DNA of 26,981 bases, from positions 1 through 26,981 of the IMG/VR virus record IMGVR_UViG_3300017928_000010; one strand, written 5' to 3'. The notes under the pieces are model-generated. The model ran no database searches. It worked only from the letters and a program-made list of their open reading frames with translations, and was not told where the DNA came from. Below are positions 9,171 to 26,981 of this stretch, piece by piece (positions within the stretch are counted from its first letter, which is position 1; the number at the start of each line of letters is the position of its first letter). This DNA comes from a virus. The position numbers were made by a program, and so were the translations under genes.

Positions 9171-11417
9171 TTAACGGTTGAATTGGGCTGGGGTAACCAT
9201 TGCATTATCAGTAACATCATGTGGTCTACCGCAAGTAGGACAATCGATAGTAAATTTACCTACAATATTGATAGTTTGTGGGACGCCCGCGATATTAGCT
9301 CCCGGTCCCTGACTGGTAGTGGTTCCAGCTGGTGTAGTAGCACCAGGAGGACGAGCAGCAATTGAGGCGCGCGCCGCGGCGCCCACTTGTTCTGACGGAA
9401 GAACGGTCCCAGATGCCGGTCCAGCTATATTTTTAGCAGTATCTAACGTTTTACGGGCAGCCACAAACTCCGCTAACATCTGTTCTTGCTTGTCCGCGCT
9501 CTCTTTGTCACCTCTAGAGAAGGCACTCTTGATAGTATCAAAAGTAGAGCGCAATGCGACTGGCATATCCTTAATACCAGTAAGCGTGGTATGTAAAGCG
9601 GCACCGTAATCCAAACCAGCCGTTTCTTTCACTTTGCCAGTTTCTATCCCTCTAGTGAAGGCGGCAACCTGCGCTCCGCCAGTTTCTCTAGCAGCACGAG
9701 CACGATCGGCAAGATTCATAGATAACACGCCCGAAGTCCCAGTAGTGGGTTGATTAACGCCACCAGCAGTCATGCGACCTACTACACGACCAGCGGCAGT
9801 ATCTCCTAAATCACGGATTTGTTCCAAGGTATTGCTAATCATTGTTAATTCGCTATAAGATTTTTGCTGTAGATCCAAGCCTTGTTTGGCGGCGTCTTGA
9901 ACACCGGTAGGTTTTAAAGCGTTTGCCAAAGCATCTGGAACGCCTTTTTGTTGGTTAATCATTCCTTGAATAAGCTTCTCTGCCGTCTGTCTATCTTTGG
10001 CTATTGGTCCTAATAGACTTTGTAACATAGCTGTTTGCTTAGTTAATTGGCTGGCAGCAGCTTCACTGCGAGCAGCTTCATCTACCGACACCAATCTACC
10101 CATCTGTCTTTCTAAAGTTTTCATCACGTCTTGAACTACACCAGCAGTATCACCTTGTTGTAGCCTTTGTTCAATCCTGTAACCTCCCATTAAACCACCT
10201 GGACCACCAGTTTGCTGAGAGACGAAAGCTTGTTGTGCAATACTAAGTCTACCTACTTGATTAGTCATCTGAGAAGCAATTTCTACAGAAGCACTGGCGC
10301 TTAGACCAGTAGATTCTAGGGCTTTACCATATGTATTGAGTGTATTGGCTAGTCCTTCGGAAGCCTTAGAGGCGGCGTCTTGACCCGTGGCAAACATTTT
10401 GAAAGCATCTGCCGAACCACGTAGAGCAGTAGTGACATCCTCAATAGGAGCTTTTAGACGAGTAGAAACGTCACTCATACGCACAGAAAACTGTAATGCT
10501 TTTTCGCCTACCAAACCATAATCCTTAAAGGCAATATTCAAATCTCTCATTACATCTTCTTGAGCACGACCTGATCCAACCGCAGTTTGAATAACCGCCG
10601 TTAACATGCTCATGGTTCTGCCATCTTTTTCGGAAACATTTACCACAGAATTAAGAGCACCGGGAATAAGCCCCAATTGATTATACCACCTTTCAGTTTG
10701 ATCGGCAGTTAAACCAGTAGCTTCTCTGGTATTTCTCAACATAGTTTGCTGAGATTCTAAAATAGTACCCAAATCTTTAAAGTCTTTGCCAGCAGCCTTA
10801 GTGACATCACCCAGTTGACCTGTTCTAGCAGCCATTTGTACATAAGCTGTTTGAGCGCGCAACATATTATCAGCATGCTTGAAGACATTGGTAGCCAGTT
10901 CCAGAACCGCTTCTTTGCCTTTACCCAAGGTAGCTGTCCATGTTGACTGACTCACTCCGGATTTGAGTAATACGTTTCCCAATGATCCCAGAGATTCTGC
11001 CATTTTTTCGGCGGGAACATTACTTAGAGCATCTCCGATATGTTTAATTTGAGCAGAAAAAGTGGTTAAACCACTATAATCGACATTGGAAAAATTAACA
11101 AAAGCTTCTCTAGCATTAACAAAGGCGGCAGAAAGTAATCCAAACTTTTCTATTTGTTCATTAGTCAGGCTGGTTATGTTACCCATACTAACACCTACGC
11201 TATTAGCCACTGACTCAATATTAGCCATGCTCGATTGCACCAAATCACTAACAGAATTTAGCGAACGATAGGCAGCTGACTGAGTATTGGTAGCTGATGT
11301 CAAATTGCCCACAGCCGTCGTTTGCTCATTAATAGCAGCAGTAGTGGCGGCTGTTGTAGCCGGATCTGGTGGGGTGGTAGGGGTGGTAGGGGTGGTAGGG
11401 GTGGTTGGGTCAGCCAT
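9171..11417 (-). CDS. Tail tape measure protein
   Basis: A 748-residue, Ala/Thr/Gln-rich, largely helical protein directly downstream of the frameshifting chaperone pair and upstream of the baseplate genes, which is the canonical tape-measure position. It should fill the tail tube, set tail length and be ejected first. At about 1.5 angstroms per helical residue, 748 residues would span roughly 110 nm, near T4 tail length. The N-terminus is a PTTPTTPTT run encoded by a nine-base tandem repeat. Residues 30-120 look like coiled coil. No convincing transmembrane segment is seen, although many tape measures have one. The extreme C-terminus carries CPTCGRPH, a possible metal-binding knuckle. The start is the first ATG, 11 bases after the chaperone stop, with only a weak GAG ribosome site. 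Confidence 0.82.
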   Translation of the reverse strand: MADPTTPTTPTTPTTPPDPATTAATTAAINEQTTAVGNLTSATNTQSAAYRSLNSVSDLVQSSMANIESVANSVGVSMGNITSLTNEQIEKFGLLSAAFVNAREAFVNFSNVDYSGLTTFSAQIKHIGDALSNVPAEKMAESLGSLGNVLLKSGVSQSTWTATLGKGKEAVLELATNVFKHADNMLRAQTAYVQMAARTGQLGDVTKAAGKDFKDLGTILESQQTMLRNTREATGLTADQTERWYNQLGLIPGALNSVVNVSEKDGRTMSMLTAVIQTAVGSGRAQEDVMRDLNIAFKDYGLVGEKALQFSVRMSDVSTRLKAPIEDVTTALRGSADAFKMFATGQDAASKASEGLANTLNTYGKALESTGLSASASVEIASQMTNQVGRLSIAQQAFVSQQTGGPGGLMGGYRIEQRLQQGDTAGVVQDVMKTLERQMGRLVSVDEAARSEAAASQLTKQTAMLQSLLGPIAKDRQTAEKLIQGMINQQKGVPDALANALKPTGVQDAAKQGLDLQQKSYSELTMISNTLEQIRDLGDTAAGRVVGRMTAGGVNQPTTGTSGVLSMNLADRARAARETGGAQVAAFTRGIETGKVKETAGLDYGAALHTTLTGIKDMPVALRSTFDTIKSAFSRGDKESADKQEQMLAEFVAARKTLDTAKNIAGPASGTVLPSEQVGAAARASIAARPPGATTPAGTTTSQGPGANIAGVPQTINIVGKFTIDCPTCGRPHDVTDNAMVTPAQFNR
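11371..11408 (-). repeat. Nine-base tandem repeat encoding Pro-Thr-Thr units
   Basis: About four copies of GGGGTGGTA on the plus strand (TACCACCCC on the coding strand) encode the PTT repeats at the tape-measure N-terminus. The units are nearly identical in DNA, so copy number could change by slippage without breaking the frame. Confidence 0.9.
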
Positions 11418-11428
11418 TTAGTATCTCG

Positions 11429-11803
11429 TTACTGTGAAGTTTGTTGTAAAGTGAGGCGTCTCTTTCTGCGACTCTTTCTGTCCCCGTTATTTATTGTATT
11501 AAGGGCTTGAAGATTAGCTTCCCTAACCATACGACTTGACTCTTCAAACTCTTCATCGGTAGATATGTGAACGTCACCGTCACCCATCAATTTCTTAACT
11601 TCTTCTGGATGATCAAAGGAGGCTAATAGATATGCCTGATTTTTAGCTAGTTCTGCTCGATCCAACTGATCTCCCACCCACTGATGAAACATCCAAAGTT
11701 TTTGAACCGGGTCCATCTCAGTAATACGTGGATCATCGGGTGTGGTATGAAATATTTCTTTACACAAATACCACGTGAATCGATGTTCCGGTTCGTGTAT
11801 TAT
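11429..11803 (-). CDS. Tail assembly chaperone C-terminal domain, made only by -1 frameshift
   Basis: This frame is the -1 frame relative to the chaperone gene upstream. It is closed by a TGA at 11818-11816, just before the slippery run, and open from there to the TAA at 11429. After slippage it reads IIHEPEHRFTWYLC, then KEIFHTTPDDPRITEM, a coherent domain including DPVQKLWMFHQWVGDQ and a basic tail (RKSRRKRR). The only nearby start is a TTG at 11767 with no ribosome site, and the conserved-looking residues begin upstream of it, so independent initiation is unlikely. By analogy with lambda gpG/gpGT, the fused protein (about 354 residues from the start at 12492) should bind tape measure and recruit tube subunits. 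The domain is real; its expression by frameshift is inferred from the sequence. Confidence 0.8.
   Translation of the reverse strand: MIHEPEHRFTWYLCKEIFHTTPDDPRITEMDPVQKLWMFHQWVGDQLDRAELAKNQAYLLASFDHPEEVKKLMGDGDVHISTDEEFEESSRMVREANLQALNTINNGDRKSRRKRRLTLQQTSQ
11742..11774 (-). other. Inverted repeat downstream of the slippery site
   Basis: GTGGTAT (11774-11768) can pair perfectly with ATACCAC (11748-11742) around a 19-base AT-rich loop. It lies 28 bases past the slippery heptamer, farther than the usual 5-9 base spacer of stimulatory hairpins, so a role in frameshifting is uncertain. Confidence 0.35.
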
Positions 11804-12492
11804 TTTTTTAGATCTTCAACAACCTCTTGGGCTTGCTCCTGTGTCTGGACAGCATATTTAGCCTGGGCTTCTTTCACCATCGATAGATATTCATCATATA
11901 ATCTGCCCAATAGATAATGATCAAATTCTTCTAAGCCGGCTAATTTATCTTCTACGGCTGAGGATCCCATAAATTGATTGGCATCCATGCCCGCAATTTG
12001 CACTAAAGAACGCGCTAATAATTGTTTTCTAATTTCGAAAGGTGATTGGACACTTCCATCAAAAGCGGTAGCAGCTATGATTGCATCTCTTAATTCCCTG
12101 TCTCTTAGAGTTCGCAAAACATAAATATTACTGCCGACCTCAAAGGAGCGGGTATGATTCGTCATACCTACTAACATTTCAATACGACGTCTAGCGCCTT
12201 CGCTAAGCCTTTCACGACCTAGTTTCTTAGCCTCTCTTGCCTCACGAAATTGCTGCTCTAAATCAGCTTGTTCTCTGGTGGGCATAGGTTCTTGTGGAGG
12301 ACCATAACGAGCATTGAAATCTCGTAAAGCGGCTTCATCCATTTGAAACGCATACTGTGATGGTTGTTGTGGACGCACACCTTGCGGCGATTGATTTTGA
12401 GGTGATTGCACACTCTCATCTGGAATGGTCACTTCCTTAAAGGGTTGTCCTTGAAATTGTTTTTTTCCGATGGGGCTATCATATCCGGTCAT
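11800..12492 (-). CDS. Tail assembly chaperone, short form (gpG-like)
   Basis: Zero-frame product, 230 residues, ending DLKK-stop within the slippery site. The N-terminal third is Pro/Gln-rich and probably disordered; a charged helix follows (about 75-110), then a compact helical domain (YVLRTLRDRELRDAIIAATA, FEIRKQLLARSLVQIAG) of the kind seen in tail assembly chaperones. It lies between the tube and tape-measure genes, where lambda G, P2 E and Mu gp41 equivalents sit. I place the start at 12492 because GGAG lies exactly six bases upstream; an in-frame ATG at 12546 adds 18 residues but has no ribosome site and overlaps a candidate promoter. Most ribosomes should stop here, and a fraction should shift into the downstream frame. 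Confidence 0.8.
   Translation of the reverse strand: MTGYDSPIGKKQFQGQPFKEVTIPDESVQSPQNQSPQGVRPQQPSQYAFQMDEAALRDFNARYGPPQEPMPTREQADLEQQFREAREAKKLGRERLSEGARRRIEMLVGMTNHTRSFEVGSNIYVLRTLRDRELRDAIIAATAFDGSVQSPFEIRKQLLARSLVQIAGMDANQFMGSSAVEDKLAGLEEFDHYLLGRLYDEYLSMVKEAQAKYAVQTQEQAQEVVEDLKK
11803..11828 (-). promoter_or_regulatory. Programmed -1 ribosomal frameshift site
   Basis: In the zero frame the coding strand reads CT(A AAA AAA) TAA, so bases 11809-11803 form a perfect X-XXY-YYZ heptamer (A-AAA-AAA) ending directly at the stop codon. AAGAGG at 11828-11823, 13 bases upstream, could act as an internal Shine-Dalgarno stimulator like that in dnaX. A frame change here joins the chaperone to the downstream domain, as in the G/GT systems of many long-tailed phages. 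Confidence 0.82.
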
Positions 12493-12574: not shown

Positions 12575-12593
12575 TCTAATTATATAGATTAGA
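12575..12593 (-). repeat. Hairpin at the end of the tail tube gene
   Basis: TCTAAT and ATTAGA pair around the loop CTATATA on the coding strand. The first arm contains the tube stop codon. Six mostly AT pairs without a following T tract make this a poor intrinsic terminator; it may be a processing or protective structure, or chance. Confidence 0.4.
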
Positions 12594-13260
12594 AGATTGC
12601 AGTTCCAGGAGGGGTATATGCGGCAGATCCGAGATCTATGAGACCCGGAGCATCCAAAGAACCACGACGACCGTTGGTGCCGGTGTCTGTCTGACGTTCG
12701 ATTGGAATATTGCTGAATGGGATACCAAGTTCGCCACCTTGAGCAACTGGAGTAGAAGATCCGTTGTTAAGAATAGAGAAGATAGTTTCCGCTTCCCAAG
12801 TCATAGTATCGGTAATAACCCAGTCGCTAACTTGATAAGTATAATCAATACCAGAAATCCACACGTTCTTGATAACGGTAGAAATCTGTAAACCTTGTGC
12901 TAACTTTTGCTTGTCAAAAATTACGATGTCGAAAGGGTAAGCTTGAGAAGCTACGTGAACAAATCCACGGCTGAAGGCTTCTGCCACTCTCAATCGGTCG
13001 AAACGTACACGTTGACAAGAACCAGTAATATTAGTAGATTGATTTGGCACAGAATCGATGTGACCATCGGTTCCAACTTCATCAACCATCTTGATAGGTC
13101 TTTTCTCAGAGATAGCCATAGATTGAACGGCTCCCACGGGAATATTTACTCCCGTAGAGTTTCTAACAGTAATGATAATGTTAGTAGATATAGCCGTGGA
13201 GGTCTTATTCTGACCGCCCGGAAAAGAAAGTGTCGAATTTGTATTGGGTGCTTGAGCCAT
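12589..13260 (-). CDS. Tail tube protein
   Basis: This 223-residue, beta-rich protein directly follows the sheath gene, the standard sheath-tube order of contractile tails. It should polymerise into the inner tube through which DNA passes. A Thr/Ser/Gly-rich N-terminus is followed by a core including VRNSTGVNIPVGAVQSMAIS, a TDGHIDSVP loop, and TVIKNVWISGIDYTYQVSDW, then TDTMTWEAETI. The C-terminal 50 residues are Gly/Pro-rich. Length is somewhat above T4 gp19 (about 163 residues). AGGGAG lies 11 bases before the ATG, a rather long spacing, and is part of an inverted repeat whose other copy lies just downstream of this gene. The gene probably needs high expression. The assignment rests on size, position and fold style. 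Confidence 0.82.
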   Translation of the reverse strand: MAQAPNTNSTLSFPGGQNKTSTAISTNIIITVRNSTGVNIPVGAVQSMAISEKRPIKMVDEVGTDGHIDSVPNQSTNITGSCQRVRFDRLRVAEAFSRGFVHVASQAYPFDIVIFDKQKLAQGLQISTVIKNVWISGIDYTYQVSDWVITDTMTWEAETIFSILNNGSSTPVAQGGELGIPFSNIPIERQTDTGTNGRRGSLDAPGLIDLGSAAYTPPGTAIF

Positions 13261-13286: not shown

Positions 13287-16124
13287 TTAACCGCCAGAAC
13301 CACCTAGATTAAGGTTGGTAATGTTAACCTTGATAAAGATCCAATTAATTGGATAAGCTGGGCTGACGCTCACCGAGATGTTCCATTGACGTGGGTCTAC
13401 GGTATCTTGTGATACTGCCAGGTCCTTGTATGCGGTAATCAAACCTTGACCTACTAGAGAGTTCAACAGAACTACTGCTTCGGTGTTGAGTACAGCGGCA
13501 GTATTGACATCCTGTGGAGTGCCAATGAAACCTTGGAATCCGGCTCTCAAAACCTTCGCTACGCGGTCTCTGATAAAAACGATGGAAATTTCTTGTTCTT
13601 CTGGGAATCCAGACTGACTGGTGGTGATACCCCAGACCACATTCCCACCTCCGGCAACTGGCTGCAAGGTGGTAATACCGGCAGCAGCTAATTGTTCTAG
13701 TACCAGGGTAGAGAACTTCTTGTTATTCAAGATAGTGAACCCAGAAATGGTTTTGTTAGTTAGAGGATTTTGGAGAATAACGTCAGCAGATTCGTAACCC
13801 GCGGCGGCAGCAGCGATATAGAATCCATCCACCAAAATGTTGTTACCTCCAGCAGCGACCACAATTTGGTCAGGATAGAAGTAGACAACACGGAAAGTGT
13901 ATCCGTAAGCGGCAGATACTGAGTAGTTTGCCAAGTCTTGTGGGTTAGCTTGTAGAATCAAGCTTGGGTTGCTACCCGGAATACCCTCTAGTGGTCCTAG
14001 GTCTTCAACGGCAGCTAGTTGTTGTCCAGTTACGTTAGCTGGGGTCAAACCATTGATAGCTCCGATGAACAACACACGTTCTTTCTTGTTGACGATGTTG
14101 CTCATAGCGATGCAGTGATTGACACAGTTCTGGAAGATAACGCTGATAGTTTGATTTGGCAATGGAACTAAGATATCGCATTCTATTGTTTCTAAAGCAG
14201 CAAGAGCATTAAGCCACCCAGCATCATAGAAAGTAGCATCACGATTATCAACGAGAGTAACTCTCAAACCGAAACCATTTGGTACCACGTTATGATTAAT
14301 AACGATATAGTTACTCACCAAAGTAGGATCAATAATTTCATAACGTACATTATGTTCGTTAACCAAAGCCTTGGCAATAGAAATGACACCATTGCCTACA
14401 GAACTATAACCAGTAATATCATACAAACCCTGGTTATTAATATCTCCGTTGATTTGTACTTTATAGTGAGTTGGATTTGCTACGAAAGCAGATATGCTGT
14501 TAAAATTAACCACAGCATCGGTAATAGTACCAGTTCCAGTGCCTACATTTTCTACAACAGTTCCTTGGGTTGCTTGGCTGCCTGGAACCACTGTATCAGT
14601 AGATGGATCGATCAGCTCAAAAGCTTCGGTACCGGCTACGTTGGTTAAATCTGGGAATGGTACGCTGCCCATGAAGTACAATTGACCATCAAAAACACCA
14701 GTGACGGTGAAAGTTGGATTATCATTTCCGCCAGTAGCTGAGGCATTAATGTTAGCTACATTCTGCGCGTCAATGATTCTAATTTCTTTACCAATGTAGG
14801 TAGAGTCAAAAGTAACAGAAGACGAGAAAACTCCCTGATTAGTTTGTGGTCCAGTTCTACCAATATAACCATCAAAACCAGTTACCAAGGTTTCGAAACT
14901 TTGAATAACGGTATAGAAGTAGGAAAATCCACCAGGAGCGGGTACGTTATCCTTGATAAATTGATCTAAGGTTGGATTACCCGCTGTACCTAAAGTATAA
15001 TATGTCTGTTTGTTAGGTAGAATCTGAGTTTCTACTTGATTAGTATTGTTAGTAATGAAAAAGTGGATATCGTCATTGAACGCCGGAACCACACCCACAG
15101 GTAACGGGAAAACGAAATCATCATCATTAGTGGAGGCAGAATTAACCGAATGAGAGAGAATGAAAGAAGTTCGTCGAGGTAGCGGTGGTGCGGCCTGTAA
15201 ACAGATAAGACTAGAAGCGCCGTTGGCGTAGAACAGTTGACCACCCAAAGACAAACTATTATCTAAGCTCGGATTGCCAAATTGAGCAATAACCTGATTT
15301 TGACCTTGAGTTAAAATAGGATTATTAATATTAGCTACTGGAATATAGGTAGCAGTTAAACTATCATTTTTAATCAACACGCCGCTAGCCACTTCGATAG
15401 TGAAAGCGTCACCTGGAACGAATGGAGAAACATATACGCTTAGTACTTGAGTTTCAATGATGCTGAAGCTCAAAATACCATTGCTAACAACATAGCCGTC
15501 AGCAATCCAAACGATTGGATTACCATTAGCATCTACCTGCGCACCGGAAACAGAACCTACGGCAATAAATGTAGCAGTACCACCGATTGGTTGATTCATA
15601 GAATTTCTTTGAACGGATATACAGCGCACGGTCCAAGTTTCTGGTGGAGCATTAACATCCACTAGAGTCAGAGCATTGATAGTACCCAAACCAACGTTAG
15701 TAGAAAGAGGAACATAGAAAGCGCCACCTTGATCTACTAAGTGGGCAGATTGTAATAGGATATGACCCGTAGTGACATCGATAAGATAATCAAAAGCATC
15801 ACTGAAAGTGGTAGTTGCAGTGATAGTAGACTCCATACCGACGAGGGGGATACCGTTTTTAAATAGAGTAGTTCTGTTAGAGATGATTGGAGCTTGTAAC
15901 AGTGTAAAATGTCTACCGTCTGCACCGCTAGTAGAGGTATAGGTTGCGTTCAAACCATCAACTCCGCCACCTTGAGCTTGAGCCACAACGGTCTCATTAG
16001 TCTGACCTTGACCGATCATGGCAGTTACACGAGAACCGCCCGGAATAGATACAGCCGCAGACGATGTCTGGACGAGCGTAAACGGTCCTGGTAATGCATT
16101 AGTTGCTCCGGGTATGTCAGCCAT
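13287..16124 (-). CDS. Tail sheath protein (large)
   Basis: This 945-residue protein is the contractile outer sheath subunit; T4 gp18 is about 659 residues, so this one carries extra domains. The N-terminus has IPGGSRVTAMIGQGQ, a typical sheath opening. The C-terminal part contains the conserved-looking sheath core: NLVDGFYIAAAAAGY-like sequence near 775 (here ILVDGFYIAAAAAGYESADV), SIVFIRDRVAKVLRAGFQG near 840, a TAAVLNTEAVVLLNSLVGQG helix, and a final ISVSVSPAYPINWIFIKVNI strand. Residues about 195-245 form a module also found in the truncated protein at the right edge, probably a surface insertion. AAGGA lies six bases before the ATG. The 141-base leader holds a strong hairpin. It is followed at once by the tube gene. 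Identification is firm from fold pattern and neighbours. Confidence 0.88.
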   Translation of the reverse strand: MADIPGATNALPGPFTLVQTSSAAVSIPGGSRVTAMIGQGQTNETVVAQAQGGGVDGLNATYTSTSGADGRHFTLLQAPIISNRTTLFKNGIPLVGMESTITATTTFSDAFDYLIDVTTGHILLQSAHLVDQGGAFYVPLSTNVGLGTINALTLVDVNAPPETWTVRCISVQRNSMNQPIGGTATFIAVGSVSGAQVDANGNPIVWIADGYVVSNGILSFSIIETQVLSVYVSPFVPGDAFTIEVASGVLIKNDSLTATYIPVANINNPILTQGQNQVIAQFGNPSLDNSLSLGGQLFYANGASSLICLQAAPPLPRRTSFILSHSVNSASTNDDDFVFPLPVGVVPAFNDDIHFFITNNTNQVETQILPNKQTYYTLGTAGNPTLDQFIKDNVPAPGGFSYFYTVIQSFETLVTGFDGYIGRTGPQTNQGVFSSSVTFDSTYIGKEIRIIDAQNVANINASATGGNDNPTFTVTGVFDGQLYFMGSVPFPDLTNVAGTEAFELIDPSTDTVVPGSQATQGTVVENVGTGTGTITDAVVNFNSISAFVANPTHYKVQINGDINNQGLYDITGYSSVGNGVISIAKALVNEHNVRYEIIDPTLVSNYIVINHNVVPNGFGLRVTLVDNRDATFYDAGWLNALAALETIECDILVPLPNQTISVIFQNCVNHCIAMSNIVNKKERVLFIGAINGLTPANVTGQQLAAVEDLGPLEGIPGSNPSLILQANPQDLANYSVSAAYGYTFRVVYFYPDQIVVAAGGNNILVDGFYIAAAAAGYESADVILQNPLTNKTISGFTILNNKKFSTLVLEQLAAAGITTLQPVAGGGNVVWGITTSQSGFPEEQEISIVFIRDRVAKVLRAGFQGFIGTPQDVNTAAVLNTEAVVLLNSLVGQGLITAYKDLAVSQDTVDPRQWNISVSVSPAYPINWIFIKVNITNLNLGGSGG

Positions 16125-17091: not shown

Positions 17092-20000
17092 TTACCAACT
17101 ATATGTTACTAAAATTGGCGAAAAGTACCAGAAAACACCATTACCGCCTGAACCGGTACCATTTAACCTCAAAAAGTTCATATCTATTTGTAAATTTATT
17201 CTATGATTATTGCCAGTGGTAAAATTGACTCCCGGAATAGTATTTATAGTTAAAAATTGTGTGCTAGCTGTTAAATCACCTATAGTAACTACTTTATATC
17301 CTGGACCAGAAGAATCAACAGATCCCACCAATAGTGTAAATACCAAAGGATCGGACAAAAATATAGTAGGAACAGAAAAGTCAGCGCCCACAGTACCACC
17401 AGTAGAAGCCGGAAAAATATTATTTCTCACGTCTGTAATACGTGCAGTTCCAGAAACACCAGTAAACAAATTATCAGCGTGGGAAACCAAATTTAAACTG
17501 ATAGCATTATTAGCAGGTTGGGTAGTATCTAATGTAGCTCCATTAAGCTGTAGCCATACGCCCATTTCTACACTAAGGATTCTCACCCCATTTGGCAGTT
17601 GATCACTCAATGGGATAGTGAAACTTAAATCTCTTTCCGCAGTAGTGGGAGGGCTAGCGTTAGGGAAGCCTGCCAATTCGGCGAATTGAGTATATGCTGA
17701 AGAAGAAGTAGTGACCGCATCCGATGAATATCTAGATAAAAATGTATTATTAACCGGATCAACGAAAATTAAAGTTGTAGTTGGAGCCGGACCGGTATTA
17801 GACGCTGCCCCTGCACCAGTAGCAATATAGTAGTACTTATAATCTACTAGCGACATGGCTTCGTAAACTATCTGATTAACATTTCTGGAAATGCTATGTT
17901 GATTTAGGCTGCCTATCACCTGCTGTTCAGTATGAGTACCGTCCACAGTAGTTTGATCAAAAAAGTTATCAGTAATTAAGTGATGACCACCACCCGCATT
18001 AACATACGCTTGCCAGATAGTGGCTAATCTGAACAATTTGTTGTGATGAATATTACAAGAATTGGTTCCAGCCACTGTAATACCGATAGGAGGATTACCA
18101 GTTAGAAGAACAGTTTGAAGATTACTAATGATATTGTTACAAATATTGGCGTCATGTTGTGAAACAATACCTAAATCATAAGCAAATTGTGATATGGTTG
18201 GTGGCGTAGCATATAATCCTGCACTAATCCAGTTGCCATCTATAATTATACTTTCCAAAGCAGTGCTACTTGCAATATTAATAACCTCGATAGCAGTATT
18301 AGTGATACTGTTACTACCAATTAAATATGATCTGCGGAAATTAACATCATAACCGTTAAGGATATTATTTTTAATAACACAGGGGGCAGCAACTGGGGCA
18401 GCAGAATTAATATTAAGAACTGGTTTAATCCAGCAACATGTATTATCACTAATAATAAGAGGTCCCGTATTGGGGGCAATGGTTGTTACATTATTAGCTA
18501 AATCTATTCCTCGGGCATCCGTAGAAGTAATATATTTGCAGGTATTGTCCTTAATAATTAAACCCAGATTTTTATCCAACGTGAAACTAATAAAATTAGC
18601 TGTAAAATTGACATCAAGTGCGATATCATATTGCGTAAAAATTGAAATAGCTCCACAAGTATTAGCCTCAATTATACAACCAGTAGCATTTATAGCTGCG
18701 TTGACAGTATTACTGGTGGCAGTAGAAGCTGGCACTATAGCAATCATTTGATCTTTATCACATACATTATTTCTAATAGTAGCATTAATTAGTTTGACAC
18801 CAGAGGCGGGCACCGTAATAGAATTTGCTAAAGATACTATAGAAATAGCCGCACGTTGTGTTTCTTGGTTGGCGGGTGCAAATGAATTTAGAGTATTTTC
18901 TATAAAAGTATTATTGGAAATATCTAAACTTTGCAAAATGGTTGGGGCACCCACAGGCGGTTGTGCTAATTCTATGTTGATGAAAGAATATCTGTTAATA
19001 CCAGTAGAAGTAATAGGTGGAACCGCTACGAATGGTGGTACGCCGCCCAAACCACCGATGAGTGGTACCCAAATAAAATGGCAGTTAGTGATAGAAATAT
19101 TTCTGTTGAAAGCATTACTACCCGGTACGGTACCAGTACCTACATGAATAAGCCCTCTACCAGTATTGATTAAATTAGTACTACTAAAATAACCGTCGGT
19201 AACATCTCCATACACAGAATTATAAACTACAGGATCATATAGATAGTTAAAAATAATATTGTCAAAATGAACGTTGCTCTGCAATTCAAATCCTGTTGGA
19301 ATGAAAACATCAAAGACTCCGTTATCTCCCTCGAAATGTATTTCTCCGAAGATGTATCCTAGAGGTATAGGGGCCACAATACTAACATGCCCTTTAACAA
19401 TAACCCTGTTGGAAATTGGATTACTTTCACCCACCGAAGCAGAGAATAAATTATTTAGTTGATAAAGCCAATTAAGTAATGAGTCAAAATTTCTAAAGCT
19501 GGCAAAAGTACCTAACGTTAACGGATCAATAAGTCCACCATATCCATTGGTAACGAATCTCTTAGCGTCGTTCAGCACTACATTGGTAACAGCAAATCCT
19601 GAACCTGGGTTGGTTACAGTAGCAACTGCCACCGCAATAGGGGTTACATCCTTTTGATTAACAACCAATCCACCAAAATAAGTACCCCTAACCTGATACG
19701 GAGTAGGTAGAGGATCGTTGGGGTTTAACACATAAAATATTCTCAAATGATTGAGCGAAAATGCAGCATACTGTCCAACGAATGGTCCGAAAGGATCAAA
19801 ATCGGTGGAGGCAACCAACTCTATTTCGGATTTATCATTCACACAAATAAACCAAGTAATAACATTAACTGTAGAAGTGGTCGTGCCATTGACAGCTTCT
19901 AATACTACCGGCAAATCAACAGATTGTGGATTTAGTTGTATAATTTTTCCATTGATAAATGCCTCTCCACCACTAAAATTAATAGTGCCTCCTGCAATAT

Positions 20001-22902
20001 TAATTTGAATGGTTGGATTTCCATTAGCATCCAAAGCATCAAATCCTCTAATAATTCCATTATCACATAACTCTCTATCAGACGATTGAATAAAATCAAT
20101 AGCTGAAGTAGATAGCTGTTCTTCACTAATATTTCCAAATTGTCTTTTATCATTCAGATAAGATACTTGATAATTTACAGTATTAAATTGACAAGTGCCC
20201 AACTGCATAATTTGACCATCTAAACTCAAAGATGGAAATAATTGTATATCTACCGATTGTGGAGTAGTAAAAGATGATATAGTGTCACCAGGATTAAAGA
20301 TAAAATCGATGTAATCTACATTTGTTGCATCATAAAATCTAGAAATTAATCCTTTTTGTCCAACGATAATGGGTCCGGCATGAGTAACGGTTGTACCGTC
20401 AAATTGACATAAGTATCCATCAAATAAGCCGGTGGTAGCATCATATGAAAAGAGTCGCAAATTAATTTTGGTTATGCCAAAATTGTATCCTCTAAGTTTT
20501 GGAGAAATATCATAAATATTGATGAAAGATAATGAAGAAGAGGAATTATACAAAGGAACAGAGCTACCAGTAGTTGGATTAACCGTAATCACACTTCCGC
20601 TGTTGTTTAATCTGGCTCGTTCGTGAGTAAAAGTGTTACCATTTTCATCCACATAAATTTCAAAGAATCTCTTAAAAGGACCGTTAGGTGATGGTATGGT
20701 AATATCGGTGGCTGACTCTTGATCAAAAGCCACGGAATCAGAATTAAAATATAAGGCAACTGGTTTACCATAGCCATCTGGACTACTAGCTAGGGTGGGA
20801 GCCGGAAAGGTACCTGTCGCATGCACCGCATCGTATACTGTAATAGCAGTGGCTGGACTAGTAGAACAATTGAAATTAATTCCACTAATTACAAATCTAC
20901 CAAAATCTACCAAACTACCCGATCCCAAGGATTGAACAACTAGCGTTTTTCCTATTTTTAGATCAGAAGTAGATAAATCCAGCGGAACTAAATATGTAGT
21001 TTGAACATGTCCAGAAACAGACTGATATCCATCAATAGACGCAACCCAATAGCCGTCACCATATTGATCAAGAGCTTGTCCTATCTGTAGGTTGAGTTTT
21101 TCTTTTTCTACACCATCTACATAGTAATTATTTCTTCTTAGTGGTACTAAAATACGAGTAACAAATTGTGAGGCTGCAACCGAAGCAAAAGAAGATGTAA
21201 ATGGCGGAGAGGCGACGTTAGAGCCTAATGCACCAAAACCCAATGGATCATGATTGGTAGAAAATACATCTATCACATTGTGTGGAAAATTAATACCCGT
21301 TCCAGTAGGGTCATAACCGGTTCCGTTAGGAAGAACAACGCCACTTATAATAGAGAAAGAGGCGTTATTATAAGAATCAGCTAACATAATGCCAAATTCA
21401 CCCTGGTAGGAAAAGGCAATAAACCTATAATTGTAACCAGGCTGCCTAAAAGCTAGATTGGTAGATTGGACTATAGAATCTAAAGTGTAAAATCCCGGTG
21501 TAGCACCTTGATTACCAGTCACATCAATAGCTGGTAATATAGTATAACCATCTTGTGGAGATCCTGTTGGATACAAGGCCAAATACAACAGATAATGTTG
21601 ACTATCAAATTGATCTGGATTAAATCCTATACCCAAAGTTTGGGCTCCGCGGGGGGCACCCACAATTAAACTGGTTGGAATATTGGAGCTATTAAAACTG
21701 CTATTAGCGGCAGCTAAAGCCAATACACCATATTTATTCGTATTAAATAATGGTCTATCAATTCTAGCAACCGCGGTGGTTGTATAGGCTAAATTTTTGC
21801 CAGCTATTCTTATAGCATAGGTTCCGTGAGTGTATTTCTTTTCTAAAATGACAAACTGAACCTCAACGGTTCCATAATTTATTCTGATAATATCGCCCAC
21901 TTGAACTAAAGCAAACTTTTCATCAAAAGAATTAGAACTTATGTCCGCGGCAGCCGGAAAAAATTGTATGATATCATCTCCATGATCAATGTCATCTACT
22001 GGCGCACTATTATTTCCCGATGGAAATCTTAAGAAGGCAGTAGCTGGTGTTGGAGGGATAATTGGTTGTCCATAACCATCAGTAGTAAGGCTAGAAGAAG
22101 TGGAAGTTCTAGAAATACCATTAGCGTATAGGTTTTGTATTCTAGTACCTAACAAGAAAATGCTAGCTTCATCAATAAACTGGGCAAACGATTGAAGGTC
22201 TTGCGCCGTTTGTGGAATAGTATTAAATCTACTGGTATTCAGAAATATACCACTAGCCACATGTGCATAATAAGAAGGATAAATGGAACCATCATTTGTG
22301 ATAATGTTACGCAATATACCAAATGGAGAGCCGTCCGCCCATTGATGAGCCAACAACTCACTATTCATATCGTTAATTAGCGTATAGGAATTAGCGTTAT
22401 CACGCTGGGTTCTAAAAACATTGTTTAAAAACTGGCTAGAATTTTCCGCTACGTCGATCTGAGACAAATCATGACGATAAATAGCCCCTATAAGATGAGG
22501 TTCTAACTTGACACCACTAACGGATATCCATCCTAAAGCTAGATTTACATCCCTAGACAGATCTCTGATATAATTAAAGAGATCCTGGGTACGATAATCC
22601 AAACGCAATTTGGATTCTGGAATTTGGGCGTTATCAATAATTTGATCTTGAGTAATTGGTAAAGTTACCAAACCTAAACTAGTAATAGCAGAAGCATTAG
22701 GAGTTCCATCCGGATTAATAAGCAAACCCAAACGGGCTGCGATAGATGGAGTAGTTCCTGCGGCACCCAAACCAATATTCATCTCGATGTTAAAGACAGC
22801 ATCTCGCAAAGCATTAATGGCGTCGCCACCAATTTCTGTTAGATTATCATTAACAACTGGTAAAGTTGTATCATCGTCAAAGTTCTGAGGAAAATTACTC
22901 AT
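17092..22902 (-). CDS. Giant tail fibre/tailspike protein with parallel beta-helix
   Basis: At 1,936 residues this is the longest gene here. The N-terminus (DDDTTLPVVNDNLTEIGGDA) and helical region to about 165 probably attach it to the baseplate. Residues about 285-540 form a beta domain (LRFPSGNNSAPVDDIDHGDD; later YRFIAFSYQGEFGIMLADSY). Around 930-1000, CDNGIIRGFDALDANGN and GGEAFINGKIIQLNP resemble a domain of other phage fibres. Residues about 1170-1650 show many short turns with Asn-rich ends (SITNCHF, LDISNNTFIENT, IIDGNWIS), the hallmark of a right-handed parallel beta-helix of NosD or tailspike type. A terminal beta domain follows (about 1745-1936). AGAGAG lies four bases before the ATG, next to a hairpin. 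Seven Asp-Gly-Tyr tripeptides are present. It probably binds, and might cleave, a host surface glycan; no catalytic triad could be assigned. Confidence 0.82.
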   Translation of the reverse strand: MSNFPQNFDDDTTLPVVNDNLTEIGGDAINALRDAVFNIEMNIGLGAAGTTPSIAARLGLLINPDGTPNASAITSLGLVTLPITQDQIIDNAQIPESKLRLDYRTQDLFNYIRDLSRDVNLALGWISVSGVKLEPHLIGAIYRHDLSQIDVAENSSQFLNNVFRTQRDNANSYTLINDMNSELLAHQWADGSPFGILRNIITNDGSIYPSYYAHVASGIFLNTSRFNTIPQTAQDLQSFAQFIDEASIFLLGTRIQNLYANGISRTSTSSSLTTDGYGQPIIPPTPATAFLRFPSGNNSAPVDDIDHGDDIIQFFPAAADISSNSFDEKFALVQVGDIIRINYGTVEVQFVILEKKYTHGTYAIRIAGKNLAYTTTAVARIDRPLFNTNKYGVLALAAANSSFNSSNIPTSLIVGAPRGAQTLGIGFNPDQFDSQHYLLYLALYPTGSPQDGYTILPAIDVTGNQGATPGFYTLDSIVQSTNLAFRQPGYNYRFIAFSYQGEFGIMLADSYNNASFSIISGVVLPNGTGYDPTGTGINFPHNVIDVFSTNHDPLGFGALGSNVASPPFTSSFASVAASQFVTRILVPLRRNNYYVDGVEKEKLNLQIGQALDQYGDGYWVASIDGYQSVSGHVQTTYLVPLDLSTSDLKIGKTLVVQSLGSGSLVDFGRFVISGINFNCSTSPATAITVYDAVHATGTFPAPTLASSPDGYGKPVALYFNSDSVAFDQESATDITIPSPNGPFKRFFEIYVDENGNTFTHERARLNNSGSVITVNPTTGSSVPLYNSSSSLSFINIYDISPKLRGYNFGITKINLRLFSYDATTGLFDGYLCQFDGTTVTHAGPIIVGQKGLISRFYDATNVDYIDFIFNPGDTISSFTTPQSVDIQLFPSLSLDGQIMQLGTCQFNTVNYQVSYLNDKRQFGNISEEQLSTSAIDFIQSSDRELCDNGIIRGFDALDANGNPTIQINIAGGTINFSGGEAFINGKIIQLNPQSVDLPVVLEAVNGTTTSTVNVITWFICVNDKSEIELVASTDFDPFGPFVGQYAAFSLNHLRIFYVLNPNDPLPTPYQVRGTYFGGLVVNQKDVTPIAVAVATVTNPGSGFAVTNVVLNDAKRFVTNGYGGLIDPLTLGTFASFRNFDSLLNWLYQLNNLFSASVGESNPISNRVIVKGHVSIVAPIPLGYIFGEIHFEGDNGVFDVFIPTGFELQSNVHFDNIIFNYLYDPVVYNSVYGDVTDGYFSSTNLINTGRGLIHVGTGTVPGSNAFNRNISITNCHFIWVPLIGGLGGVPPFVAVPPITSTGINRYSFINIELAQPPVGAPTILQSLDISNNTFIENTLNSFAPANQETQRAAISIVSLANSITVPASGVKLINATIRNNVCDKDQMIAIVPASTATSNTVNAAINATGCIIEANTCGAISIFTQYDIALDVNFTANFISFTLDKNLGLIIKDNTCKYITSTDARGIDLANNVTTIAPNTGPLIISDNTCCWIKPVLNINSAAPVAAPCVIKNNILNGYDVNFRRSYLIGSNSITNTAIEVINIASSTALESIIIDGNWISAGLYATPPTISQFAYDLGIVSQHDANICNNIISNLQTVLLTGNPPIGITVAGTNSCNIHHNKLFRLATIWQAYVNAGGGHHLITDNFFDQTTVDGTHTEQQVIGSLNQHSISRNVNQIVYEAMSLVDYKYYYIATGAGAASNTGPAPTTTLIFVDPVNNTFLSRYSSDAVTTSSSAYTQFAELAGFPNASPPTTAERDLSFTIPLSDQLPNGVRILSVEMGVWLQLNGATLDTTQPANNAISLNLVSHADNLFTGVSGTARITDVRNNIFPASTGGTVGADFSVPTIFLSDPLVFTLLVGSVDSSGPGYKVVTIGDLTASTQFLTINTIPGVNFTTGNNHRINLQIDMNFLRLNGTGSGGNGVFWYFSPILVTYSW

Positions 22903-23707: not shown

Positions 23708-25606
23708 TTATGGCAATAAGTTAGCCTGTAGGTTTTCTTCCACTTCTAGATTACATCCACTAGCGGGGAACTGAATATCATTAGCAGTGCCGGCTTGGGC
23801 ACAAATATTGATCACCCATGGTTCATTGATGGGGAAGTTAGAAATAATATAGAAAGGTAAATCCACGGTAGCGGCAAAAGTAAAACTAATGGCGGGTGGA
23901 ATAGTATACAGTCCAATGGGAGCAATATTAGTAGTATTGCCTGCACCAATACTGTAAAACATCCCCAAAGACACCGTATCAGCTTCCGACAAGTTATTAA
24001 CATAACCAGTGGCGGAAGCAATCAATCGTCCTGTCACGGTAGGTACAATAGTGACGCTAGTAATGATATGTGCTGCGGTATCTGATAAAGTAACGGGTGA
24101 GGCATTAGTCGCCCATTGATAGGCGGGAGGTGATTCCGCAAACCAATAGCCATCCGTGTTATCCCAGGTGAGGGCATATCCATCTTGGGCAGCCCCAAGA
24201 GAAGACAAAGTGGTGGAGAGATTTTTTCCTCGTAGTTTGACTACGGTGGAGGATCCTAACGTCCCCGTGACATCTCCGGCGATAGTACCTCCGCTTCCAC
24301 TATGTTGTTTGAGATAATCAATGGCAGCTTGCACGGTCACCGCTCCGATAGTGGGAGAGACATAGCCATCATTATAGGAGACCTGTGCGGCGATATCATC
24401 TAAAATCAAGGTGACATTAGTCTGTGGCAAAGATATACTGGAATTGGCATCATACACGATTTGTGCATTACCTGCCACCGCCGCAGACACACAGGAAGCG
24501 CTGATAGTAGAGGCGTTGGCGTCAATTACTAGCGTCAAAGTACTGACACCTCCCGTGACAGTAATGACGGGAGCACCGCCTCCGGGTAAACCACCAATGG
24601 TACCTCCATCCGACTCAATAAATAAATGTCCGGAAGTGGTATTGGTAATGGTCATCAGCGGTTGACAACCCCCTTCCACATTGAGAAAGCTATGAGAGAA
24701 AATTTGTACGGTATGATTGAGAGCATCCGAGAAACTGATGGGAGTGCTACTAGTAGAAGCATTGGTCAGTTGGGCTCCTACCACATTCATAGAGAGAATG
24801 CCGTTCCACACCACGCCAGCTTGCAATTGCAGCATGGGAGGTCCGGGACCCCCGGATCCCAAGATGGTCAATAGCTGATTGCCCCAAGTATAGGTGCCGG
24901 CTGGCACAGTGAAAGTGCTACTATGAGTGGAGTCCAAGTAAATGGTGACTGGTGCACTGCCCAAAGTTTGCGCAAAAGCATACACACCCGCGAAAGTGGT
25001 ATACACATTACCTCCCGCGGTACCTCCGGGTTGATAGACGACCACATTTTGTCCAGTATAATTCCATTCGATATAACCATCCGCAGACACCCAAGTGGGC
25101 ACTTGCCCATTGAGTGGATTAGTAGGAGTTTTAAACTTGTAACCATCCAAAGCTATTACCAATGGATTAGGATAGGTGCCTCGTAAGTCGCCACCTGCCG
25201 CCCCATTATTCACATTTTGTGGGGACCAGAATCCGCCACTTTGCCAAGTCAATACTTGACCCGTAGACGGCGGTAAGGTACTAATCGGTCGTCCCTGAAT
25301 ATTGACTACCCTAACATTAGTAGCAGTTCCAGCAATATCTCCAGATAATTGAACAATACCTAAAGTAGTTGTAGTTGCTGGATTTAAAACTGGGGATGCT
25401 GCTTCAGCCAGTAAAGCAATAGCGTCTTGCACATTAGTGGGCTGCTCACCACTAATAGTGATTAATGGGGACATATCGATTTGATTAGCCACGTGACGGA
25501 AACCAGTACCATTAACATGCTGTTGAAAATCAAATCTATCCGTGACCAAACGACCTACGTCTGGCACATAATTTGGAACTGCTGGTTTTTGTCTGTTGTC
25601 CGTCAT
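23708..25606 (-). CDS. Tail fibre protein with repeated GD-x-GT modules
   Basis: A 632-residue fibre-like protein. Three modules of about 42 residues begin GDIAGTATN (about 88), GDLRGTYPNP (about 138) and GDVTGTLGS (about 445), and each ends near a Trp-containing strand (TGQVLTWQSGGFW; NGQVPTWVSADGY; LTWDNTDGYWF). GDLxGTYPNP is a familiar fibre-shaft motif. Between copies two and three is a Gly/Thr/Ser-rich beta region. The C-terminal 130 residues (from WATNASPVTLSD) form a separate domain, probably the receptor-binding tip. No good ribosome site precedes the ATG; an in-frame stop just upstream excludes a longer start. Five Asp-Gly-Tyr tripeptides occur. Sampled lines in the middle of the gene are 50-60% GC against roughly 30-40% in the next fibre gene, suggesting recombination. 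Remnant fibre sequence follows its stop codon. Confidence 0.8.
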   Translation of the reverse strand: MTDNRQKPAVPNYVPDVGRLVTDRFDFQQHVNGTGFRHVANQIDMSPLITISGEQPTNVQDAIALLAEAASPVLNPATTTTLGIVQLSGDIAGTATNVRVVNIQGRPISTLPPSTGQVLTWQSGGFWSPQNVNNGAAGGDLRGTYPNPLVIALDGYKFKTPTNPLNGQVPTWVSADGYIEWNYTGQNVVVYQPGGTAGGNVYTTFAGVYAFAQTLGSAPVTIYLDSTHSSTFTVPAGTYTWGNQLLTILGSGGPGPPMLQLQAGVVWNGILSMNVVGAQLTNASTSSTPISFSDALNHTVQIFSHSFLNVEGGCQPLMTITNTTSGHLFIESDGGTIGGLPGGGAPVITVTGGVSTLTLVIDANASTISASCVSAAVAGNAQIVYDANSSISLPQTNVTLILDDIAAQVSYNDGYVSPTIGAVTVQAAIDYLKQHSGSGGTIAGDVTGTLGSSTVVKLRGKNLSTTLSSLGAAQDGYALTWDNTDGYWFAESPPAYQWATNASPVTLSDTAAHIITSVTIVPTVTGRLIASATGYVNNLSEADTVSLGMFYSIGAGNTTNIAPIGLYTIPPAISFTFAATVDLPFYIISNFPINEPWVINICAQAGTANDIQFPASGCNLEVEENLQANLLP

Positions 25607-25713: not shown

Positions 25714-26981
25714 TCAGGGGAGAATAATAGTATGTGTATGCCCGAGCACCGTTTGAACGACCCCATCCGTAATTGGGTGATTATGTCCCTGTGAGATACC
25801 GGTAGTCTGATTAATTTGGCTGACCGCCAAAACCTTTTCATTTACTACGATGGTGTGGCTATGAGGCGGAATAGCAGGAGGAGCCATACCCAAAGAAGTA
25901 TTGATGGTATTTGGAAAATCGGAAGTGTTACGGAACACCCTAACTTGATAAGCCGGATCGGTCTTACGGATACGGAAGGTCTTCAAGTGCTGACCGCCAT
26001 CTTGACCTAAAATGGTCTGATTACGAATGACGTCCCCTACTTCGTAGCGGAAGGATTCGTTATCGTTCTGGTCGAACAAAATCAAGAAATCACGTGTCTT
26101 GATGGTAGGCACCGTGAGAGTCCAAATATCTAGCGGGAACTCAGATTCCAAACCACCTTCATGCATTTTTAGATTTTCAGCAGTTGGTCCCAAACGCACC
26201 ATGATGCGTCCGTCCGACTGACGCGGATTGAAATATTGGGTGTATCCAAAGACAAACTTGGTGCCGTAGCAGAACGGGCAACGGTCGTCAGGATATTCGC
26301 TAGTGGAGAGGTAACAACTGCATACGTCTCCCGTCTGCACTCTCTGTACTAGAACAGCTGGTTGCCCCGTAACGGACAATAAAATGTCTTGACGCTGAGT
26401 ATTTTGATCCTGGAGTGAGAAACCACGATAGATGTTGTAGTTGCCGTAAGCATCGATACAACCCATCTCTCCACCGATGTAACTGCCTACGCAAGTACCA
26501 TTGAGCAATTGTACCGGATCAGTACGGTGATAGCCCGCATAGTCGTATATCGGGAAAGTAACATTAGCCGCGTCAGCGGCAGCTAAATCTGTGCTCAAAT
26601 AATCGACGGGTACCTGCCTATAACCATCAATAATAGTGAAAGGAAAGTTAGGATATTCAAAACGAGATAAGCAAACATACATCTGATCATAAAGGCGAGA
26701 CTCGGTTAAAGTAAAGACAGTAACCAAAGGATTCCAGGTATTGTAGCCATCGAAACCACTAACCGAGTGAGAGGTAATCGGAGTGTTATCATAGCCACGA
26801 CCGCTGGACAGACCTGGTTGTGCTCCGGCTACTTGGACGGTAAAAGAATCGCCCGGTACAAAAGTATATCCATCATTTTCAACAATACCAAAACTCAAGA
26901 TACCATCAGAAACTATCGGACCGTTAGCCACCCAAACTGGGTAGTTGCCATAACCATCCACCGGATCGCCTGGTGGGGGAC
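25714..26981 (-). CDS. Tail structural protein with Cys knuckle and HxH motifs, 5' end cut by window edge
   Basis: The frame is open to the right edge, so the N-terminus is missing. A GTG at 26961 is in frame but is an internal valine: bases upstream read PPPGDPV without a stop, and the following module (WVANGPIVSDGILSFGI, then FVPGDSFTVQV) matches residues about 195-245 of the sheath. About 215-235 codons later comes CSCYLSTSEYPDDRCPFCYG, a CxC...CPxC arrangement suggesting a bound zinc. The C-terminus has three HxH motifs (HSH, HNH, HTH) in the last 50 residues; in T4 gp37-type fibres such motifs bind iron along the trimer axis. It is therefore probably a virion tail or fibre-network protein upstream of the fibre genes. 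The exact role is not recognised. Four Asp-Gly-Tyr tripeptides occur. Confidence 0.75.
   Translation of the reverse strand, partial: PPPGDPVDGYGNYPVWVANGPIVSDGILSFGIVENDGYTFVPGDSFTVQVAGAQPGLSSGRGYDNTPITSHSVSGFDGYNTWNPLVTVFTLTESRLYDQMYVCLSRFEYPNFPFTIIDGYRQVPVDYLSTDLAAADAANVTFPIYDYAGYHRTDPVQLLNGTCVGSYIGGEMGCIDAYGNYNIYRGFSLQDQNTQRQDILLSVTGQPAVLVQRVQTGDVCSCYLSTSEYPDDRCPFCYGTKFVFGYTQYFNPRQSDGRIMVRLGPTAENLKMHEGGLESEFPLDIWTLTVPTIKTRDFLILFDQNDNESFRYEVGDVIRNQTILGQDGGQHLKTFRIRKTDPAYQVRVFRNTSDFPNTINTSLGMAPPAIPPHSHTIVVNEKVLAVSQINQTTGISQGHNHPITDGVVQTVLGHTHTIILP

Follow-up and report, generated by a model that had tools for sequence, protein, structure and literature searches.

It is well-known textbook knowledge that tailed phages can extend their tail chaperones by programmed -1 frameshifting. 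The slippery heptamer of lambda is G GGA AAG. The short, abundant lambda chaperone gpG and its extension by -1 frameshifting, gpGT, bind the tape measure and the tube protein (PMC5009743). In genes unrelated to tail chaperones, the -1 cassettes of dnaX and of the IS3 family combine an upstream SD-like element, an A-rich heptamer and a downstream stem (PMC4066793). A further system is found in Bacillus phage G (NC_023719), where the deposited annotation names gp181 and gp182 as tail assembly chaperone and gives gp182 as a two-piece join. Here we describe a locus from an uncultured virus that shares features with each of these systems, and we propose with high confidence that its tail assembly chaperone gene, which belongs to a myophage, is read by programmed -1 ribosomal frameshifting in the manner of lambda G/GT.

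The window, that is, the whole stretch of DNA that we analyzed, is a virus fragment of 26,981 bases (IMGVR_UViG_3300017928_000010, positions 1 to 26,981) whose minus strand carries a contractile-tail module of sheath, probable tube, chaperone and probable tape measure genes. The sheath gene (13287-16124, minus) was identified by its match to phrog_2839, tail sheath (E = 6e-12). Sheath profiles match the C-terminal part only of its 945-aa product, which likely contains large insertions. Many DGY/DGYG repeats were also seen in large minus-strand proteins, encoded at 17092-22902, 23708-25606 and 25714-26961. The gene that follows the sheath and precedes the chaperone (12589-13260, minus) probably encodes the tail tube protein, given its place in the order; its one PHROG match, to a virion structural family, is weak. 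The zero frame of the chaperone gene (11800-12492, minus) encodes a G-like protein of 230 aa and starts at an ATG at 12492 that is preceded by an SD (-6.4 kcal/mol, computed in the identical locus L041). The next gene downstream (9171-11417, minus) encodes a 748-aa protein with no clear family match in profile searches, and we therefore assign it as the probable tape measure protein from gene order, which is as in phage G. The chaperone gene accordingly lies between tail tube and tape measure, with the sheath placed by profile and its two neighbors by order and by the match to phage G.

A preliminary description of this locus had claimed that the chaperone gene ends in an in-phase -1 slippery heptamer that touches the stop codon, and that the -1 frame, closed by a TGA just before the heptamer, is then open for about 124 codons and yields a fusion of about 354 residues. 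Direct reading of the sequence bears out each of these points. The 3' end of the gene (12492-11800, minus) reads GTT GAA GAT CTA AAA AAA TAA, so that the heptamer A AAA AAA occupies 11809-11803 (minus) and the zero-frame stop TAA occupies 11802-11800 (minus). In this abutment of heptamer and stop, and in the presence of an SD-like element, the locus differs from lambda. The -1 frame has its stop, TGA, at 11818-11816 and is thereafter open down to 11429, where it adjoins the tape-measure gene; this confines a shift to a short stretch that contains just one slippery heptamer. A shift there would add the 124 codons of a T-like domain (11429-11803, minus, including the stop) to give a fusion of 354 aa. 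Among the 12 genes of the window, only the chaperone gene has a slippery X_XXY_YYZ heptamer within a -1 overlap.

We looked for relatives with each half of the gene. An initial search with the zero-frame protein returned only the identical contig, and an alignment of 39 sequences was too diverse for a pattern search. A search with the -1 domain only, using patterns that did not include the heptamer, found 38 loci, all 38 of which have A7 in the same phase. Alignment searches extended the relatives to 93 distinct sequences; A AAA AAA is present in 93/93 with no run above seven A, and the zero-frame stop abuts it in 84 (TAA in 66, TAG in 18) and follows one codon further on in the other 9. A search with the zero-frame protein then gave 80 loci, which all end alike, and added 14 distinct cases for a total of 107, some few of which are truncated at a contig end. 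Some of the later search patterns contained KK but permit AAG, so the result was not forced by the patterns. All 107 distinct relatives, which are related rather than independent sequences, thus share the heptamer, its phase and its position at the stop, and no relative without the heptamer was found, as the preliminary description had anticipated. Several of the relatives are on contigs of 200-480 kb. No relative was found in GTDB genome contigs, and GenBank phages, searched directly at both the DNA and the protein level, yielded no significant match, phage G appearing only at E = 0.2.

A break in frame at a homopolymer could in principle be a sequencing or assembly error, or else a frame-disrupting mutation in one phage. 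This explanation, to which we assign a negligible probability, is refuted by the 107 distinct sequences, drawn from many metagenomes, that break at the same place. The heptamer is also conserved beyond chance. Across the zero-frame gene, mean synonymous identity is 0.03 above the codon-usage expectation, while each of the two heptamer lysine codons is AAA in 68/68 sequences (100%) against an expected synonymous identity of 0.61. The synonymous peaks nearest the shift in the zero frame are these two lysine codons, the glutamate codon GAG within the SD-like element (57/59) and another glutamate codon, GAA, three codons further on; in the -1 frame the peaks include CCG (column 6) and CCG GTT (columns 35 and 36). 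Two other features of codon usage in the -1 frame were noted. The second codon after the shift (11800-11798, minus), when it encodes isoleucine, is ATA in 53/54 relatives, and the overlapping stop does not demand ATA. There is also a second patch of unexplained synonymous conservation, GCT AAA AAT CAC GCA TAT nTA TTA, at codons 56-63 of the -1 frame (window ~11645-11610, minus), about 170 nt past the shift.

An A7 homopolymer is also a place where RNA polymerase might add one A or drop two, since poly-A runs are known slippage sites, and the fusion would then be translated without any ribosomal shift. Programmed transcriptional slippage, however, usually uses runs of eight or longer (PMC3711429), and the run here is exactly seven in 107/107 relatives and never longer. 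In the phage G homologue the heptamer is A AAA AAC, a run of only six A, and both the SD-like element at a fixed distance and the downstream stem, described below, point to the ribosome. We consider transcriptional slippage very unlikely.

The SD-like element lies 13 nt before the heptamer at 11823-11828 (minus), within the 6-17 nt upstream at which stimulatory SD-like sequences are spaced (PMC4066793). Its AAGAGG had been put forward as a possible stimulator of the shift, a suggestion that we can both support and refine: the element is part of a conserved SD-like motif found at a fixed distance in relatives, where the consensus is AGGAGGT, and the window carries a weaker form of it. At this site, predicted pairing with the anti-SD is below -6 kcal/mol in 58/67 relatives, as against 1.5% of positions elsewhere in the gene.

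Such a motif upstream of the junction, together with a stop-codon overlap that resembles that of coupled genes, could also suggest two separate genes, with the downstream ORF started at a non-canonical codon such as ATA or TTG, or by ribosomes that reinitiate once past the TAA. The SD-like motif is, however, 19 nt from the first new codon, which is too distant for initiation, and at that codon almost all relatives have ATA or ATC. Neither a conserved ATG, GTG or TTG nor a ribosome site for the -1 domain was found across the relatives compared, and the earliest such codon of the -1 frame in the window is a TTG at 11767. The downstream domain codes for a conserved protein and has no conserved start of its own, as expected of lambda G/GT-type chaperones and as had been noted from the window. 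Separate genes would, moreover, leave the invariance of AAA AAA without explanation, and we judge this arrangement more improbable still than transcriptional slippage.

Programmed -1 frameshifting in a tail assembly chaperone is also indicated by homology and by fold. The -1 half matches PHROG_25000, tail assembly chaperone (E = 4e-4), as a comparison with tail chaperone profiles had been expected to reveal. A Foldseek search of the -1 domain found no match in the PDB, and in BFVD its only match, a weak one, is a Bacillus phage JL protein, the tail assembly chaperone. For the zero-frame protein we obtained an AlphaFold (AF2) model with a pLDDT of 81, whose best solved match is 2ob9, the tail assembly chaperone of HK97 (101 residues, Z = 8.2; the second match, 3klu, is tied). 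The zero-frame protein is thus predicted to fold like the HK97 chaperone, although identity is 12% and HK97 is a siphophage. Among viral models, the zero-frame model matches phage G gp181. In a profile comparison, parts of the phage G protein align with both halves (E = 2e-10 for the zero-frame half and 1.5e-8 for the -1 half), while the neighboring phage G proteins, used as a control, gave E = 0.7.

Based on these alignments, both halves of the chaperone are homologous to gp181/gp182, which occur in the same gene order and with a joined longer product. At the equivalent point phage G reads TTA AAA AAC TAG, with AAAGGA upstream, so that there too an A-rich heptamer directly precedes the stop. 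The two systems differ in the heptamer (A AAA AAC in phage G, A AAA AAA here), in the stop (TAG in phage G, TAA in the window) and in the C-terminal domain, which is longer in phage G at about 250 aa. In place of the long-range stem found here, the prediction for phage G is a short local hairpin.

This stem is an additional element, absent from the preliminary description. Its 5' arm, GAACCGG (11788-11794, minus), starts 8 nt after the heptamer; about 77 nt separate it from the 3' arm, CCGGTTC (11704-11710, minus), its exact reverse complement. The CCG and GTT of the 3' arm are the strongest synonymous peaks among codons 1-64 of the -1 frame. All seven pairs can form in 63/93 relatives, and in a scan of 41,220 position pairs this pair has the most fully paired sequences, the 99.9th percentile being 12. 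Under synonymous codon resampling with the proteins fixed, the mean number of fully paired sequences was 3.1 and the maximum 11, in a resampling/arm-permutation test that ignores the relatedness of the sequences. The minimum-energy fold of the window closes with the long-range stem (-26.3 kcal/mol). Rules for bacterial frameshifting place the 3' stimulator, a structure closed by G-C, 4-10 nt downstream with a length of 17-140 nt (PMC4066793); the stem, about 92 nt long, falls within these ranges in the window and in about two thirds of the relatives. A local hairpin within the EPEHRF codons was also considered and was dropped because those codons pair with the distant CCGGTTC. Rfam gave no match.

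Compensatory changes in the stem are few. Two distant lineages, L053 and L038, carry GAATCGG/CCGATTC; L165 carries GAACCTG/CAGGTTC, which also turns a proline codon into a glutamine codon. In a MAFFT alignment of 38 rows the covariation count was near the shuffle mean, barely above shuffles, because the arms hardly vary; the case for the stem therefore comes from synonymous constraint and the three compensatory cases. The stem is lacking in about 28/93 relatives, mostly one distant group. We conclude that constraint supports the putative stem well, and covariation to a lesser degree.

Taken together, homology, gene order, fold and the conserved cassette point to a lambda G/GT-type programmed -1 frameshift, the reading already proposed in the preliminary description and now strengthened by the heptamer and phase of the relatives, the startless downstream domain, the chaperone family matches and the SD-like element. 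The pieces of the cassette match both the known rules of bacterial -1 frameshifting (PMC4066793) and the lambda G/GT scheme (PMC5009743). The working scheme that we propose, a short chaperone and its -1 extension, is the lambda one, although no sequence relation was detected between the lambda chaperone and the one described here. The parts of the cassette resemble those of dnaX and the IS3 family, except that the stem here is long-range. Counted against frameshifting are the low shiftiness of A_AAA_AAA in E. coli, the absence of the stem from some relatives and the small number of compensatory changes. In that host, A_AAA_AAG shifts far more readily than A_AAA_AAA (PMC5009743).

From the observed sequence, conservation, homology and RNA-level constraint, we infer the slippage, its efficiency and a role for each product as follows. 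The majority of ribosomes would halt at the TAA and release the 230-aa chaperone. A minority would be delayed by SD-like pairing upstream and by the long-range stem downstream, with slow termination as a possible further cause of the pause. While two tRNA-Lys occupy A AAA AAA, these paused ribosomes would slip back one base into the -1 frame and produce the fusion of 354 aa. As in lambda, the chaperone part may bind the tape measure while the C-terminal extension may recruit tube subunits. Because the heptamer abuts TAA or TAG in nearly every relative, it is conceivable that release-factor competition at the stop acts with the SD-like element and the co-conserved stem to set the ratio of chaperone to fusion, in a termination-coupled -1 frameshift fixed across the giant-phage clade; we offer this only as a speculative and rather unlikely extension.

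Frameshifted tail chaperones were already known, and the phage G homologue is annotated as joined. Our contribution is to assign such a chaperone in an uncultured clade and to describe its cassette, which is unusually complete and invariant, has a heptamer that abuts the stop and includes a long-range stem; we found no paper on it in the open-access literature. In these phages the second half of the chaperone is split or given a wrong start by gene callers. The parts of the cassette, namely the SD-like element, A AAA AAA, the adjacent stop and the long-range stem, can be tested singly. Our analysis assigns the tail chaperone, together with its fusion, in a large group of uncultured myophages, many of them on contigs of 200-480 kb, and links the cassette of this clade to a cultured phage, phage G.
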